Positions 3,992 through 21,400 of a DNA stretch of 33,271 bases are shown here, piece by piece. This DNA comes from Candidatus Aegiribacteria sp. (GTDB taxonomy: Bacteria; Fermentibacterota; Fermentibacteria; Fermentibacterales; JCC-6). The position numbers were made by a program, and so were the translations under genes. Position 1 is the stretch's first letter. Every line of letters starts with the position of its first letter. The notes beneath the pieces are model-generated. The model made no database searches. It was not told the DNA's origin and worked only from the letters and a program-made list of their open reading frames with translations. The DNA lies in contig JAIOQY010000179.1 of NCBI GenBank assembly GCA_021108435.1, forward strand, positions 1 through 33,271. The letters are read 5' to 3'.

Positions 3992-4587
3992 CAGGTTCCT
4001 ATGGAGAATCTGGCGAACCGACTGATAACGATATTTTCACGAAGTTTCGCTATCAGATTGGTAAGTGCATCTTTAACTGTTCCTACTTCAGGATCATCCG
4101 CCCATTCCTGATCAAGAAGACAGGCTTCAGCGTAATATTTGTCCAGTCGTCCTTCAATGATCTTCTCTATGATGTTATCCGGTTTACCAGAATCTTTCAG
4201 CTGCGCAAGAAGTACTTTCTTCTCAGCTTCAATTTCTTTTTCCGGCAGGTCATTGCGGGATACAACACTTGGAGGATATGCTGCTATGTGCATTGCTACC
4301 ATTTTTGCGAACTTCTTGAAGTCATCGGTTCTGGCAACGAAATCGGTTTCACAGTTAATCTCTACCAGCACACCGAGCTTGCCGGGAGGATGTATATATG
4401 ATACAACCAGTCCCTCCGAAGCTTCTCTGAGAGCTTTCTTGGATGCAACTTTAACACCCTTTTCCCGAAGGAATGAAATAGCTCCCTGCATGTCTCCATT
4501 GCTTTCTTCGAGCGCTTTCTTGCAGTCCATCATTCCTGCTCCAGTGGCTTTTCTCAGTTGTTTCAGATGATCTAGATTAACGGACAT
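3991..4587 (-). CDS. tsf: Elongation factor Ts, short form
   Basis: Nucleotide-exchange factor that releases GDP from EF-Tu. The N-terminal UBA-like domain LRKATGAGMMDCKKAL and the ETDFVAR core motif with a following DDFKKFA are clear. At 198 residues it is much shorter than the roughly 280-residue E. coli protein and resembles the compact Thermus-type EF-Ts with a reduced core. The C-terminal helix (VKDALTNLIAKLRENIVISR) is intact, so this is a natural short form and not a truncation. The ATG at 4585-4587 shares one base with the rpsB stop, giving tight coupling. Confidence 0.96.
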   Translation of the reverse strand: MSVNLDHLKQLRKATGAGMMDCKKALEESNGDMQGAISFLREKGVKVASKKALREASEGLVVSYIHPPGKLGVLVEINCETDFVARTDDFKKFAKMVAMHIAAYPPSVVSRNDLPEKEIEAEKKVLLAQLKDSGKPDNIIEKIIEGRLDKYYAEACLLDQEWADDPEVGTVKDALTNLIAKLRENIVISRFARFSIGT

Positions 4588-5714
4588 TATTCACCCGAAT
4601 CCTTTCCCTCTTCCTGAGCATTTTTCGGCTTTTCGCTGACTGAAGCTGTATCCGTTGTAATATCTCCAGCAGTTTCTTCTGCTGCAGCCTTCTTTTCAGT
4701 CTTTCTGGCCGTAGTTTTCTTTGCAGGTGTATCTGCTGTTGTCTTCTCAGATCTGGCAGCAGTTGTTTTCTTCTCCGGTTTAGCGGCAACCGTTTTCTTC
4801 TCCGGTTTGGCGGCAGCTGTCTTCTTCTCCGGTTTGGCGGCAACCGTTTTCTTCTCCGGTTTGGCGGCAACCGTTTTCTTCTCCGGTTTGGCGGCAACCG
4901 TCTTCTTCTCCGGTTTGGCGGCAGCTGTCTTCTTCTCCGGTGCGGCAGAAGCTGTCTTTCTTTTTTCAGCTTCAACACCACCTGTACTATCATCCGTCGG
5001 GATCGGTTTCTCCGCTGTAGTATCAGGAGCAGCCCCTTCAGCACCAAGAATGACGTGATCAGCCAGAGTACCAATAATCAATGAAATGGATTTGATCGCA
5101 TCATCATTTCCCGGAATCGGATAATCAACTTCGGTCGGATCACAATTCGTATCAACTATTCCGATACAGGGAATATTAAGTTTCCTTGCTTCATGAACAG
5201 CAATCTGCTCCTTCTTGATATCGACAACCACGACTACTCCAGGCAGCTTTTTCATGTGACGAATACCTGTAAGATCCTTCTCCAGTTTTTCCCTTTTTCT
5301 TCTTTTCTGAAGAATCTCCTTTTTCGTCATGCTTGCAGGAAACCCATCCTTCTCAGCCTTTTCAAGTTCAACCAGGGTTTCTATGCCTTTAGAAATGGTC
5401 TTGAAATTAGTGAGCATGCCCCCCATCCATCTTTCAGTAACGTAGTACTGACCACATCTTATGGCGTGTTCCTTCAAACATTCCCTTCCCTGCTTCTTTG
5501 TGGCAACGAAAAGAACGCTTTTTCCGGACGCGACAGTTTTAGCGATCAGATTGGAGGCATCCTCCAGAAGGGCTCTGGATTTTTTGAGATCAATGATATG
5601 AATACCGTTTCGAGCCATGAAGATGTAATTCCGCATTTTCGGGTTCCATCGACTTTTCTGGTGACCGAAGTGAATTCCGGCCTCCAGCATTTCCTGCATG
5701 GAAGGTATTTCCAT
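4587..5714 (-). CDS. rpsB: 30S ribosomal protein S2 with long repetitive Lys/Ala-rich C-terminal tail
   Basis: Small-subunit ribosomal protein. Residues 1 to about 225 are an ordinary S2: MLEAGIHFGHQKSRWNPKM, RNGIHIIDLKKS, TKKQGRECL, and the GIVDTNCDP/PGNDDAIKSI region. S2 in E. coli is 241 residues, but this protein is 375. The extra roughly 140 residues are low-complexity, rich in Lys, Ala, Thr, Pro and Glu. They include seven near-identical 9-residue units (KPEKKTVAA type) encoded by the 27-bp tandem repeat at 4765-4953. The tail then continues irregularly (KKTTARKTEKKAAAEE) and ends acidic. It resembles histone-H1-like tails in composition, but I can assign no function. The start codon follows the structured leader at 5740-5799. 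Confidence 0.95.
   Translation of the reverse strand: MEIPSMQEMLEAGIHFGHQKSRWNPKMRNYIFMARNGIHIIDLKKSRALLEDASNLIAKTVASGKSVLFVATKKQGRECLKEHAIRCGQYYVTERWMGGMLTNFKTISKGIETLVELEKAEKDGFPASMTKKEILQKRRKREKLEKDLTGIRHMKKLPGVVVVVDIKKEQIAVHEARKLNIPCIGIVDTNCDPTEVDYPIPGNDDAIKSISLIIGTLADHVILGAEGAAPDTTAEKPIPTDDSTGGVEAEKRKTASAAPEKKTAAAKPEKKTVAAKPEKKTVAAKPEKKTVAAKPEKKTAAAKPEKKTVAAKPEKKTTAARSEKTTADTPAKKTTARKTEKKAAAEETAGDITTDTASVSEKPKNAQEEGKDSGE
4765..4953 (-). repeat. 27-bp in-frame tandem repeat in rpsB (seven copies)
   Basis: Seven consecutive 27-bp units, each reading on the plus strand roughly as TTCTTCTCCGGTTTGGCGGC plus a variable 7-base part, encode K/A-P-E-K-K-T-[VAT]-A-A. The units differ only at a few positions: gttttc/gtcttc, caacc/cagct, and tgcggcag in the last copy. 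Because the period is a multiple of three, copy-number change alters tail length without shifting the frame. The near-identity at DNA level points to recent duplication or ongoing slippage. Confidence 0.95.
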
Positions 5715-8141: not shown

Positions 8142-8656
8142 GAAAACCCGTGTTCGCATTTGCCTTCGAGCCTGTCCAGTGAGCACGCTTTCACTCCGCC
8201 GTCTTTGAAGATAGAAGTAATCTCATCATTCCAGACTGCAGGTACAACCCACAGCTCATACCCCTCCAGCAAAGCTGCTGCGGATCTGCCAACCAGTGAC
8301 AAAGCTCTTTTCGAAGGGGGTATTCTTTCTGAAAACGATTGCGGGATTACAGCGATGTTATCTTTAACAAATGGCAGAAGCAATGAGATACCCGGCCATG
8401 GCTGTAATCGGAGAGGTCGACTGAATCCGTGTTCCCGAAGTATCTCCCAGGTATATCTGTATATATACCTTGCCTTTCTTGAATCAAGCCGATTATCAAG
8501 CTGCAGGACAGACCTCCTGAGTGCAGGAGGTGCTGGTGATGACAGAACTTCTGCCATGACCGACGGAAGATACAGGGGAATCTCAGAAACGGAATCAGGT
8601 TCAAGCATCCTTCTGCCAAGTTCTGTCCAGAAGTAAAGGAACCACCGGTTCCTCAC
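8138..8656 (-). CDS. Hypothetical protein between recX and the YidD-like gene
   Basis: A 172-residue protein I do not recognise. The GTG start at 8654-8656 overlaps the recX stop (GTGA), and the stop overlaps the YidD-like start (ATGA), so it is a genuine coupled gene. The N-terminal half is basic and helical with several Arg clusters (LRRSVLQLDNRLDSRKARYIYRYTW). The C-terminal half alternates beta-like and helical segments (NIAVIPQSF, RALSLVGRSAAALLEGYELWVV). It ends in a Cys-containing tail (KACSLDRLEGKCEHGFS). There is no signal peptide, and no clear membrane segment or catalytic motif. Coupling to recX gives no firm functional hint. Confidence 0.7.
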   Translation of the reverse strand: MRNRWFLYFWTELGRRMLEPDSVSEIPLYLPSVMAEVLSSPAPPALRRSVLQLDNRLDSRKARYIYRYTWEILREHGFSRPLRLQPWPGISLLLPFVKDNIAVIPQSFSERIPPSKRALSLVGRSAAALLEGYELWVVPAVWNDEITSIFKDGGVKACSLDRLEGKCEHGFS

Positions 8657-9279
8657 GAAGTATCCTCTCCTGAATCAACAAAAGCACTCTTTATTACCAT
8701 CATGATAAGATCTGAGTTGAATCCTCTGCGCCTCAGGTAACCGGCAGCTCTTCGAAATGCCTTATCGCTATCAAGGTGAGCATATCTGCTTTTCACAGTT
8801 TTTATCAGAATCTCAGACAGCTCGTTGTCGTCATACTCTTCAAGAATACTATCGATGATACTTTCTTTAATCCCCCTCCGCCGGAGTTCAGCACGAATCC
8901 GGTATTTCCCCATCGGAGAATTATTGGAATGGCTTCGCAGAAAGATAGATGCATATCTTTCATCATCTACAATATTACTTCGCTCCGCCCACTCCAGGGT
9001 ATCATTAATAACCTGCTCAAGATATTTCTTATCAAGAAGATGTTTTCTGAGCTGGTTGGCTGTATGCTCGGATTTCGCCAGGTATCTCTCAGTGTCTTTT
9101 CTGGCTGCAGGTGCCTGTTTACGAACAGCAGCTTCTTCAACAGCAGCAGCATCGATTTCCGCATCAGGTTCAAGTCCCATCCGCACGATCTGATCCTGTG
9201 GAAGCAGCCATGATCTTCCGCCTGCTATGACAAGGAACCAGCCTTTCCTGATCTGTCTGATTTCCTCTATGAGAGCCAG
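8653..9279 (-). CDS. recX: Regulatory protein RecX, apparently starting at CTG
   Basis: RecX binds RecA filaments and inhibits or modulates recombinase activity. The RecX three-helix repeats are clear: LAKSEHTANQLRKHLLDKKY, then IVDDERYASIFLRSHSNNSPMGKYRIRAELRRRGI, and a third repeat near DKAFRRAAGYLRRRGFN. The first ATG/GTG/TTG in frame is GTG 9184-9186. However, the 31 codons upstream encode IRKGWFLVIAGGRSWLLP followed by MGLEPDAEID, which matches the usual RecX N-terminus. That stretch is open back to the recA stop codon, with no ATG, GTG or TTG. CTG at 9277-9279 lies 6 bases after a perfect AAGGAG (9286-9291) and is my start, giving 208 residues. The gene follows recA by 3 bases. Confidence 0.88.
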   Translation of the reverse strand: MALIEEIRQIRKGWFLVIAGGRSWLLPQDQIVRMGLEPDAEIDAAAVEEAAVRKQAPAARKDTERYLAKSEHTANQLRKHLLDKKYLEQVINDTLEWAERSNIVDDERYASIFLRSHSNNSPMGKYRIRAELRRRGIKESIIDSILEEYDDNELSEILIKTVKSRYAHLDSDKAFRRAAGYLRRRGFNSDLIMMVIKSAFVDSGEDTS

Positions 9280-9282
9280 TCT

Positions 9283-10329
9283 CTACTCCTTTTTCTCTCC
9301 CGGTTCCTCCTGGGTATCTTCCTGTCCGGGTATTTCAAGTTTCTCCCTTATCTTCATTTCAAGGGAATCGGCAATATCAGGGTTTTCCTGAAGGAAGGTC
9401 CTGCTGTTCTCGCGTCCCTGTCCGAGCTGAATGTCCTCCATTGAGTACCATGTTCCCCTGCGTGTTATCAGACCGATATCCATTCCCAGATCAATGAGTT
9501 CACCATGTCTGGAGATTCCGAAACCATGGAGAATATCGCATTCAATATTCCGGAATGGGGGGGCCAGCTTATTCTTAACAACTTTTATTCTTGTACGGCT
9601 TCCTATAACTTCATCACCCTGCTTCAGAGATGCAATTCGTCTTACATCCAGACGTATGCTGCTGTAAAACTTAAGTGCTCTGCCGCCGGTTGTAGTTTCA
9701 GGATTGCCGAACATCACGCCAATTTTCATCCGGATCTGATTGATAAATACCACAGCACAATTCGAGTGAGACACTGCACCGGTCAGTTTTCGGAGAGCCT
9801 GTGACATCAGCCGGGCCTGAAGGCCTACATGGCTATCACCCATCTCACCTTCAATTTCAGCTCTGGGCACAAGCGCCGCAACAGAATCAATTACTATGAC
9901 ATCGACCGCGTTACTTCTAACAAGCATTTCAGTTATTTCCAGTGCCTGCTCACCGTTTGAGGGCTGAGAGACCAGAAGATCATCTACTATAACACCCAGT
10001 CTTTCAGCATAAGTGGGATCAAGAGCATGTTCAGCATCTATAAACGCAACCTCACCCCCATTTTTCTGAGCGCTGGCAATGATATGAAGGGCAAGAGTTG
10101 TTTTTCCTGAAGCTTCAGCTCCATATATTTCCGTAACCCTTCCCCTGGGTATGCCTCCAATTCCCAACGCGGCATCAAGAGCAATTGAACCTGTTGAGAT
10201 TATGTCTATTTTCATGTGAGGGTGTTCACCCAGTCGCATTACCGCACCCTGTCCAAATTGTTTCTGGATCTGGAGAAAAGCCGCTTTTAGAGCTTTTTCC
10301 TTCTCGGCAGATTTGCGTTTTTCAGACAT
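9283..10329 (-). CDS. recA: Recombinase RecA
   Basis: ATP-dependent strand-exchange protein and SOS coprotease activator. The 348 residues show the Walker [24 protein letters not shown], Walker [18 protein letters not shown], the [10 protein letters not shown] segment, the [22 protein letters not shown] loop, and [15 protein letters not shown]. The C-terminus is short and acidic ([12 protein letters not shown]). The ATG at 10327-10329 begins 4 bases after the thpR stop. It is followed directly by recX, a classic pair. I see no obvious LexA-box-like operator, as there is almost no upstream gap. Confidence 0.98.
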
Positions 10330-20054: not shown

Positions 20055-20082
20055 TTGAAGGAATTCGCCAACCATTTATGTT
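20055..20082 (+). promoter_or_regulatory. Weak candidate promoter for the MFS gene
   Basis: TTGAAG and TATGTT are separated by 16 bases, each matching four of six consensus positions. The implied leader to the CTG start at 20108 would be only about 20 bases, but it includes the AAGGAGG site. Low confidence; listed because the palindrome at 20035-20052 abuts it. Confidence 0.25.
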
Positions 20083-20107
20083 CCTGCAATGATAAGGAGG
20101 AATTTCT

Positions 20108-21400
20108 CTGAAAAGAATATTCAGATTATCGCCTGAAAATGCATGGTGCATGTACGACTGGGGAAATTCCGCATTCGTTACAACTGTAGTTGCCGCGGTA
20201 TTGCCTGTGTACTTCGCTGAGACAATTTGTGGTGGAAACACTGTGGAATGGGCATTCCTCGGAAGACAGCTTACAGGCAGCGCCACTTCGCTCTGGGGAT
20301 ATGCGATGGCTCTTGCCGCATTCTTCGTTGCATTACTCGCTCCTGTTCTCGGAGCAACGGCTGACGCCGGAGGAAGAAGAAAACAATTCCTTTTAATAAT
20401 GACTGGAACAGGCGTGCTGGCAACTGTTCTGCTGTCAATGACCGGAGCTGGAGACGTCTGGCTTGTTCTGGGAATCCTTGTTCTGGGACAGATTGGCTTT
20501 GCCGGAGCAAACGTTTTCTATAACTCACTGCTTGTTTCCGTAGCAACACCGGAGAGAAGAGATCTCATATCATCGAGAGGATATGCATTCGGCTACCTTG
20601 GTGGGGGCATTCTTCTGGCAATAAACCTCCTTATGATCAGAAAACCATCCATATTCGGTTTTGCTGATGCATCTGTTGCTCTGAGATACGTTTTTCTGTC
20701 AGTAGCTGTATGGTGGTCTCTTTTCTCTATTCCGCTTTTTCTCAGGGTTCCGGAGGGGCCTTCGGGGGGAGAACGAACTTTCATCGGCTCTCTGAAACAT
20801 GGAATATCAACGCTTTTCTCAACATTCAAACACATCAGGAAGAACAATAATATTTTTCGATTCCTGATTTCATTCCTTCTGTATAATGATGGTATACAGA
20901 CTGTTATCATGATGGCCACAATCTATGGAAAAGTGGAGCTTGGACTAAGTTCAGGGAATCTTATCGGCGCTCTTCTTCTAACTCAGATTGTAGGAGTTCC
21001 AGGCAGCCTTCTCTTCGGAAAACTCGCAAAAAAATACGGTTCAAAGCAGATGCTTTTCACCGGCATAATTGCTTATGTGTTTGTTATCCTCTACGCTTTC
21101 TGGATGAAAAAAGCTCTTGATTTCTGGATACTCGCAGGAATTGTCGGTCTGTTCATGGGTGGACTACAAGCCGTAAGCCGTGGATTCTACTCAAAGCTTA
21201 TTCCTGATGGAATGAGCGCTGAGTACTTTGGATTTTTCTCGATTTCTCAGAGATTTGCAAGTATATTCGGCCCATTGATGTTCGCTCTGATAAGTGATAT
21301 TACCGGAAGCTCCAGGTTATCCATCCTGTCTCTTGCGTTTCTCTTCCTTGCAGGTGGTCTTATTCTGGTAAAGGTCAGAACACCGGAAGAAGCAGTATGA
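20108..21400 (+). CDS. MFS transporter, UMF1/Atg22-like family, apparently starting at CTG
   Basis: A 12-helix-type membrane transporter. The opening YDWGNSAFVTTVVAAVLPVYF is the hallmark of the Atg22-like/UMF1 group (YDWANSAF in many homologues). Other conserved parts are LLAPVLGATADAGGRRKQFL and LGQIGFAGANVFYNSLLV. The first ATG (20150) would start exactly at MYDW and lose the usual N-terminal lead. The frame is open back to a TAA at 20093-20095 with no ATG, GTG or TTG, but CTG 20108-20110 sits 7 bases after a perfect AAGGAGG (20094-20100), so I start there (430 residues). The stop overlaps the next gene (ATGA). The substrate is unknown; amino-acid efflux is known for yeast Atg22, which need not apply here. 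Confidence 0.88.
   Translation: MKRIFRLSPENAWCMYDWGNSAFVTTVVAAVLPVYFAETICGGNTVEWAFLGRQLTGSATSLWGYAMALAAFFVALLAPVLGATADAGGRRKQFLLIMTGTGVLATVLLSMTGAGDVWLVLGILVLGQIGFAGANVFYNSLLVSVATPERRDLISSRGYAFGYLGGGILLAINLLMIRKPSIFGFADASVALRYVFLSVAVWWSLFSIPLFLRVPEGPSGGERTFIGSLKHGISTLFSTFKHIRKNNNIFRFLISFLLYNDGIQTVIMMATIYGKVELGLSSGNLIGALLLTQIVGVPGSLLFGKLAKKYGSKQMLFTGIIAYVFVILYAFWMKKALDFWILAGIVGLFMGGLQAVSRGFYSKLIPDGMSAEYFGFFSISQRFASIFGPLMFALISDITGSSRLSILSLAFLFLAGGLILVKVRTPEEAV

Follow-up and report, generated by a model that had tools for sequence, protein, structure and literature searches.

Where translation begins is the question raised by an Atg22-like MFS transporter gene of Candidatus Aegiribacteria sp., whose reading frame, within the 33,271-nt stretch of DNA analysed here (the window), contains no ATG, GTG or TTG before an ATG at 20150–20152 on the plus strand. 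The frame runs from stop to stop over 20096–21400 (434 codons, with the closing stop at 21398–21400) and is closed upstream by an in-frame TAA at 20093–20095, which overlaps a Shine-Dalgarno (SD) sequence, AAGGAGG, at 20094–20100; a CTG at 20108–20110 follows this SD by 7 bases. The first-pass annotation had proposed the CTG as the start codon, and both its description of the open stretch from the TAA to the ATG and its placement of the CTG behind the SD were confirmed, coordinates included. Read from the CTG, a start assigned by conservation, the coding sequence (20108–21400, plus strand) would specify a protein of 430 aa, which matches PF11700 (ATG22) with an E-value of 1.2e-70 and 239.1 bits against a curated cut-off of 24.1, in an alignment of residues 12–423 with profile positions 8–472 of 482 that covers most of the length, and which also matches PF07690 (MFS_1).

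No plus-strand open reading frame of at least 100 aa lies between 15482 and 20150, and hence no upstream gene was seen to which translation could be coupled; the upstream neighbour, which by eye we take to be a PEP-carboxykinase-like gene, lies on the opposite strand. A phage search with the transporter start region gave no match. Further off in the window, an open reading frame at 4587–5714 on the minus strand, presumably ribosomal protein S2-like as recognised by eye, carries a long repeated KPEKKT(V/A)AA tail. The combination of SD and CTG is by itself non-diagnostic, given that AAGGAGG-N7-CTG occurs 7 times in the host genome (G000; 2.92 Mb in 218 contigs) against 4 times for the reversed pattern used as a control, which is near chance; the raw pattern was therefore dropped as evidence, and conservation was left to decide.

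To follow the CTG among relatives, we used a same-genus search set of 19 genomes (G000–G018), the closest named relatives of the host being Candidatus Aegiribacteria and Candidatus Fermentibacteria records. The N-terminal match to the transporter was absent in G002 and G010, leaving 17 genomes that hold the region, and in 15 of these 17 the codon at this position is a CTG behind an SD (AAGGAGG, AAGGGAGG or AAAGGGG), with an SD-to-start spacer that varies in length among relatives while the CTG stays in frame. The other two have an SD-led GTG (G001) and probably an ATG (G005), both at nearby but not identical codons, indicating that CTG is not obligatory for the transporter. In the neighbouring genus g2 (G019), an SD-led CTG lies 3 codons further upstream, and the transporter CTG is present also in several named public records. 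Given that the 15 CTG-bearing proteins share pairwise identities of 0.70–0.96 and that the codon recurs in public records, it is neither a local mutation, the possibility that the first-pass annotation had wished to check through ATG codons in close relatives, nor a sequencing error.

Codon usage along the alignment sets the start codon apart from the rest of the gene. The comparison used the 15 rows with CTG, without G001, G005 and G019; since possession of the CTG was the basis for inclusion, a single codon in the start column follows from the selection itself, and 15 of 17 remains the fair figure. The G015 row was read from record L016, equated with it by matching coordinates and identity, and stops at a contig edge, so that only about the first 205 residues entered the 15-row comparison. 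Within them, 123 columns held an invariant residue, 83 of these with at least 3 synonymous codons, and the start was the only one written with a single codon, as opposed to none of the other 82 and none of the 15 other invariant Leu columns. Without G015, the 14 full-length rows gave 4 single-codon columns out of 166, and the start stood alone among 34 Leu columns. These figures bear directly on the proposal that another near-cognate codon is the start (the ATT before the CTG in relatives, ATA at 20117 or TTA at 20126), with the CTG as spacer or an ordinary Leu codon. ATT does lie immediately 5′ of the CTG in several relatives, and ATA is a near-cognate, but none of the three is kept across the 15 rows, and an ordinary Leu codon should have drifted as the other invariant Leu columns have, making this proposal very unlikely.

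In 11 of the 15 CTG-bearing genomes, the host included, an in-frame stop lies at most 6 codons upstream of the CTG with no standard start between them. In G004, G013, G017 and G018, the frame runs on to an ATG, GTG or TTG 5–6 codons before the CTG, and this upstream codon sits just 5′ of the SD. At about the same place in the sister genus g5, the nearest standard codon, read by eye, is GTG in 6, TTG in 4 and ATG in 1 of 11 cases. The transporter locus L097 (G020, genus g3) has AGGGGGAGG, then six bases and a GTT, with a standard codon absent at the usual place, and a GTT start is possible there.

If translation began at the CTG, the 13 codons between it and the ATG (20111–20149; KRIFRLSPENAWC) would form an N-terminal extension. 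In the transporter frame, pN/pS across this stretch was 0.16, as against 1.40 and 2.06 when the stretch is read in the alternative frames; variable columns numbered 6, 4 and 11 at the three codon positions, and synonymous sites were near saturation (pS 0.67). Judged by this pattern of substitution, the stretch is protein-coding, which answers the doubt, raised with the original proposal, over whether codons between 20108 and 20150 are conserved. The ATG22 match likewise opens upstream of the ATG, at A12, 3 residues before the corresponding Met.

These observations weigh against initiation at ATG 20150 with an accidental SD and CTG upstream. That ATG is the first standard start in the host genome, and a Met codon just before the YDW motif is common in the family, occurring as ATG in 39 of the 50 distant homologues readable at the motif (from 63 loci of other phyla, L017–L079). 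However, among the 15 CTG-bearing genomes the codon is ATG in only 4 and CTT or CTC (Leu) in 11, where the next standard codon comes 27–66 codons after the CTG. Moreover, 47 of the 50 distant homologues have a standard codon 8–40 codons upstream of YDW, suggesting that the Met before the motif is mostly internal in the family, as we read it in the host; the other three (L048, L077 and L078) have no standard codon 2–40 codons upstream of YDW and count against the CTG reading. With constraint at the protein level and a Pfam match both reaching upstream of the ATG, and with the CTG kept genus-wide as described above, initiation at ATG 20150 is highly improbable. The CTG start is thus supported by its conservation, by the constraint on the codons that follow and by a domain match from residue 12, and on this comparative evidence three points can be regarded as established: where the CTG lies, that the genus has retained it, and that the adjoining stretch is coding.

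The DNA ahead of the SD is itself partly conserved. An alignment of 14 of the 15 CTG-bearing leaders (G018 left out) contained the invariant blocks TTATG, TTC, TGA and CTGAA, and TATGTT at 20077–20082 (plus strand), kept in all 14, is a possible −10 element, while a sigma-70 scan of the promoter region returned no site. Should TATGTT be a −10 element, the leader may measure ~20 bases and hold little but the SD. Directly 5′ of the SD, at 20078–20092, lies a four-codon frame, ATG TTC CTG CAA TGA; as a conserved upstream open reading frame (M-F-x-R/Q/N-stop) it was rejected, being intact, by eye, in 11 leaders and broken in 3, and a promoter element accounts better for the conserved bases, though this is not proved. 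Two of the 14 leaders (L006 and L007, equated with G011 and G016) carry an extra AGTGACGTCCGG... just upstream of TTTATG.

Taking these observations together, we propose that the transporter is very probably translated from CTG 20108, through weak fMet initiation that is kept by selection and by a device shared with a few other genes. The SD would position the 30S subunit at the CTG, where the ordinary initiator fMet-tRNA would pair with CUG despite a first-position mismatch, and the protein would begin fMet-Lys. With such a mismatch, initiation would be weak, and retention of the CTG suggests that this weakness is what selection has kept, the purpose being perhaps a low transporter level or a level set by initiation factor IF3. 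The same device would operate at the CTG of a class V aminotransferase gene, the CTG or ATA of recX, the CTG of thiE, the ATA of an AMMECR1-like gene and the ATT or ATC of infC.

The class V aminotransferase (PF00266; L148:16343, plus strand) has a CTG start in 17 of 17 genus orthologues, at protein identities down to 0.35, and here, in contrast to the transporter, none of the genus rows was set aside; the matches in G005 and G014 were weaker and resembled paralogues, and stand outside the 17. Its CTG is the sole single-codon column among 62 invariant degenerate columns and the sole one among 14 Leu columns. The SD of this gene is weaker and varies, and the CTG is missing in G019 and G020, which belong to other genera.

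The second CTG start in the window is that of recX (8653–9279, minus strand; Pfam RecX domains), with the CTG at 9279–9277 behind AAGGAG at 9291–9286. In the 17 genus rows whose N-terminus was read, a set without G008 and without G004, where a match was lacking, the start is CTG in 3 (G000, G006 and G015), ATA in 11, behind GGAGG- or GAGGAG-like SDs, and ATG in 3 (G001, G005 and G007), the ATA and ATG rows being read by eye. The first-pass annotation had named recX as its other CTG case, which holds for the host and two relatives but gives way to ATA in most of the genus. A start that is kept non-canonical while the codon itself differs points to selection for weak initiation. The TAG that ends recA, at 9283–9285, shares the recX frame and precedes the CTG by a single codon, so that recX could be reached also by termination-reinitiation; the distance to an upstream in-frame stop differs among relatives. 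RecX is reported to interact with and modulate RecA (PMC3062782), and given that recX follows recA, weak initiation could plausibly serve to keep the RecX:RecA ratio low.

These two genes also help to weigh a historical account of the transporter start, in which the CTG arose once and was retained by chance or for overlapping DNA signals, not for weak translation. All CTG rows come from one genus, plus possibly G019, and the leader adjoining the codon is partly conserved, as this account would have it. Against it, the near-saturated synonymous sites just downstream make chance retention unlikely, the aminotransferase has retained its CTG likewise, and recX has ATA in 11 rows where close relatives have CTG. 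We consider the historical account unlikely and continue with a CTG start kept for its weakness.

Starts of this kind recur, with varying constancy, in further genes. A gene at L314 (minus strand, 852) is presumably thiE-like, given its LYLVTDP motif; of its 14 genus rows, 3 show CTG, 7 have ATG or GTG in its place, and 4 have ATG or TTG one codon upstream. Another, at L121 (minus strand, 15737), is presumably AMMECR1-like; of its 15 genus rows, 5 show ATA, 9 have ATG as the aligned codon, and the last has its ATG a codon further on. A single in-frame TGA occurs in six AMMECR1-like frames from relatives, and the host has a tRNA-SeC (L128:1383–1479, minus strand); the TGA-bearing frames are possibly selenoproteins, or else sequence errors. 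For infC, the 14 genus rows divide into 4 with an ATT start and 10 with ATC, and ATT is the apparent start in the host; an ATT or ATC start of infC is the usual mark of IF3 autoregulation. Two ATA starts look good as candidates: a frame at L134 (minus strand, 15711; G000:C182) with a signal-peptide-like beginning, IKKLVFALLLL..., whose ATA lies behind a ten-base SD match and whose standard start comes 7 codons later, and a membrane-protein-like frame at L324:16876 (plus strand; G000:C30) with ATA behind TAAGGAGG, a stop 6 codons upstream, the next standard start 37 codons on and orthologues in the genus. Candidate starts that were not confirmed comprise a CTG at L195, a CTG of a tpiA-like gene at L198, which has a TTG two codons upstream, and a CTT or ATC at L209.

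How common such starts are in the host was estimated in a sample of 913,810 bases (31% of G000) by counting codons in coding-like frames, from the stop upstream as far as the first standard start, where neighbouring codons can share an SD. Overall, 208 of 4,381 codons were preceded by an SD. For CTG the count was 10 of 102 (one-sided Fisher p = 0.022, uncorrected, with four overlapping groups tested and the two window genes that prompted the question included in the sample), for ATA 7 of 118 (p = 0.33), and pooling CTG, ATA, ATT and ATC gave p = 0.13; the seven near-cognates together were not enriched (31 of 671, p = 0.60). The ten SD-led CTG matches comprise the transporter, recX, the aminotransferase and thiE, and six that stayed unconfirmed, five of which lacked both a strong SD and an N-terminal homologue in the loci examined, the sixth being L208. 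The suggestion of the first-pass annotation that more than one gene initiates at CTG gains support from recX, the aminotransferase and thiE, although it extends to no more than a handful of genes. With CTG only mildly enriched and the pooled near-cognates not, non-canonical starts appear to be few, without a general loosening of start choice.

Statistical start scans of single genomes were noisy, one of them allowing excess G-U pairing, and served only to nominate candidates. The same use was made of an EM start model, which produced false AAA, CTT and GCT starts. The strict scan missed the transporter itself, whose orphan stretch scored −1.2, and was loosened for the final count. In an E. coli control, the strict scan of 250 kb made 2 matches, neither of them at a near-cognate codon, and did not detect infC, whereas the EM model recovered the ATT of infC together with false AAG, AGT and GTC starts.

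The same counts speak to the idea that CTG is a strong start in this clade, owing to a dedicated initiator tRNA with the anticodon CAG or to a changed IF3. Several CTG starts within one genus would accord with it, but near-cognate starts are not generally enriched, the host IF3 has both Pfam domains, and ARAGORN found seven tRNAs, including tRNA-SeC and none with CAG, in 51 of 80 host stretches, a small part of the genome; we regard a strong CTG start as extremely improbable. For a weak CTG start, control by IF3 is possible, the circumstantial pointer being the apparent ATT start of the host infC. More tentatively, and with some doubt, we speculate that the transporter, aminotransferase, recX, thiE and AMMECR1-like genes form an Aegiribacteria start-codon regulon with infC as its hub, in which starts are kept non-canonical, the codon itself is free to change, and the level or activity of IF3 would set translation of the members jointly.

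Natural CTG starts are rarely documented in bacteria, and here two unrelated genes retain theirs in most or all members of a genus. The transporter appears to be a well-conserved new case of a bacterial gene with a weak, non-canonical start. Among the matches listed from the open-licence literature, none described a CTG start that is conserved throughout a bacterial genus, or a recX gene that begins with CTG or ATA. In the 11 genomes where a stop lies close upstream, a gene caller limited to ATG, GTG and TTG would drop 14 to 66 residues of the transporter, and standard annotation would probably truncate the N-termini of these proteins. The genes assembled here form a set ready for asking whether IF3 controls more than itself.

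One close known system is the autoregulation of infC from an ATT, ATC or ATA start; the apparent ATT of the host infC and the ATT or ATC of the genus resemble it, although infC encodes the regulator itself and the transporter would be a target at most. The rarity of the codon is illustrated by a comparison of 36 genome groups, in which only 2 of 61,358 ancestral AUG starts had switched to CUG (PMC5622118). In E. coli, complexes of CUG with initiator tRNA are reported to be less stable than those with AUG, GUG or UUG (PMC11497404); the codon, the CAU initiator tRNA and the poor first-position pair are as proposed here, whereas those complexes were formed in the laboratory with mutant initiator tRNA and the transporter CTG is natural and conserved. 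A caution comes from Caulobacter dnaA, where an SD-led CUG detected by toeprinting is reported not necessarily to serve in vivo, and which differs in that a canonical AUG is required there (PMC8443254). In Staphylococcus aureus, cvfC1 and ccpN are reported to have conserved AUU and AUA starts that give ~10% of AUG expression in poor medium and, for ccpN, up to 30% in rich medium (PMC13009471). Like the transporter, they combine a clade-conserved near-cognate start with a strong SD; they differ in the gene and in using AUU or AUA, and were characterised by ribosome profiling and reporters, the transporter by comparison alone (PMC13009471). Streptomyces sigR starts with GTC in 32 of 34 species and GTT in the other two and is reported to be repressed by IF3 (PMC5472188). 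It shares with the transporter a genus-wide non-canonical start behind an SD, extended in sigR, and differs in its codon and in the direct test of IF3 control made there; in both a weak start would tune the dose of the protein (PMC5472188).
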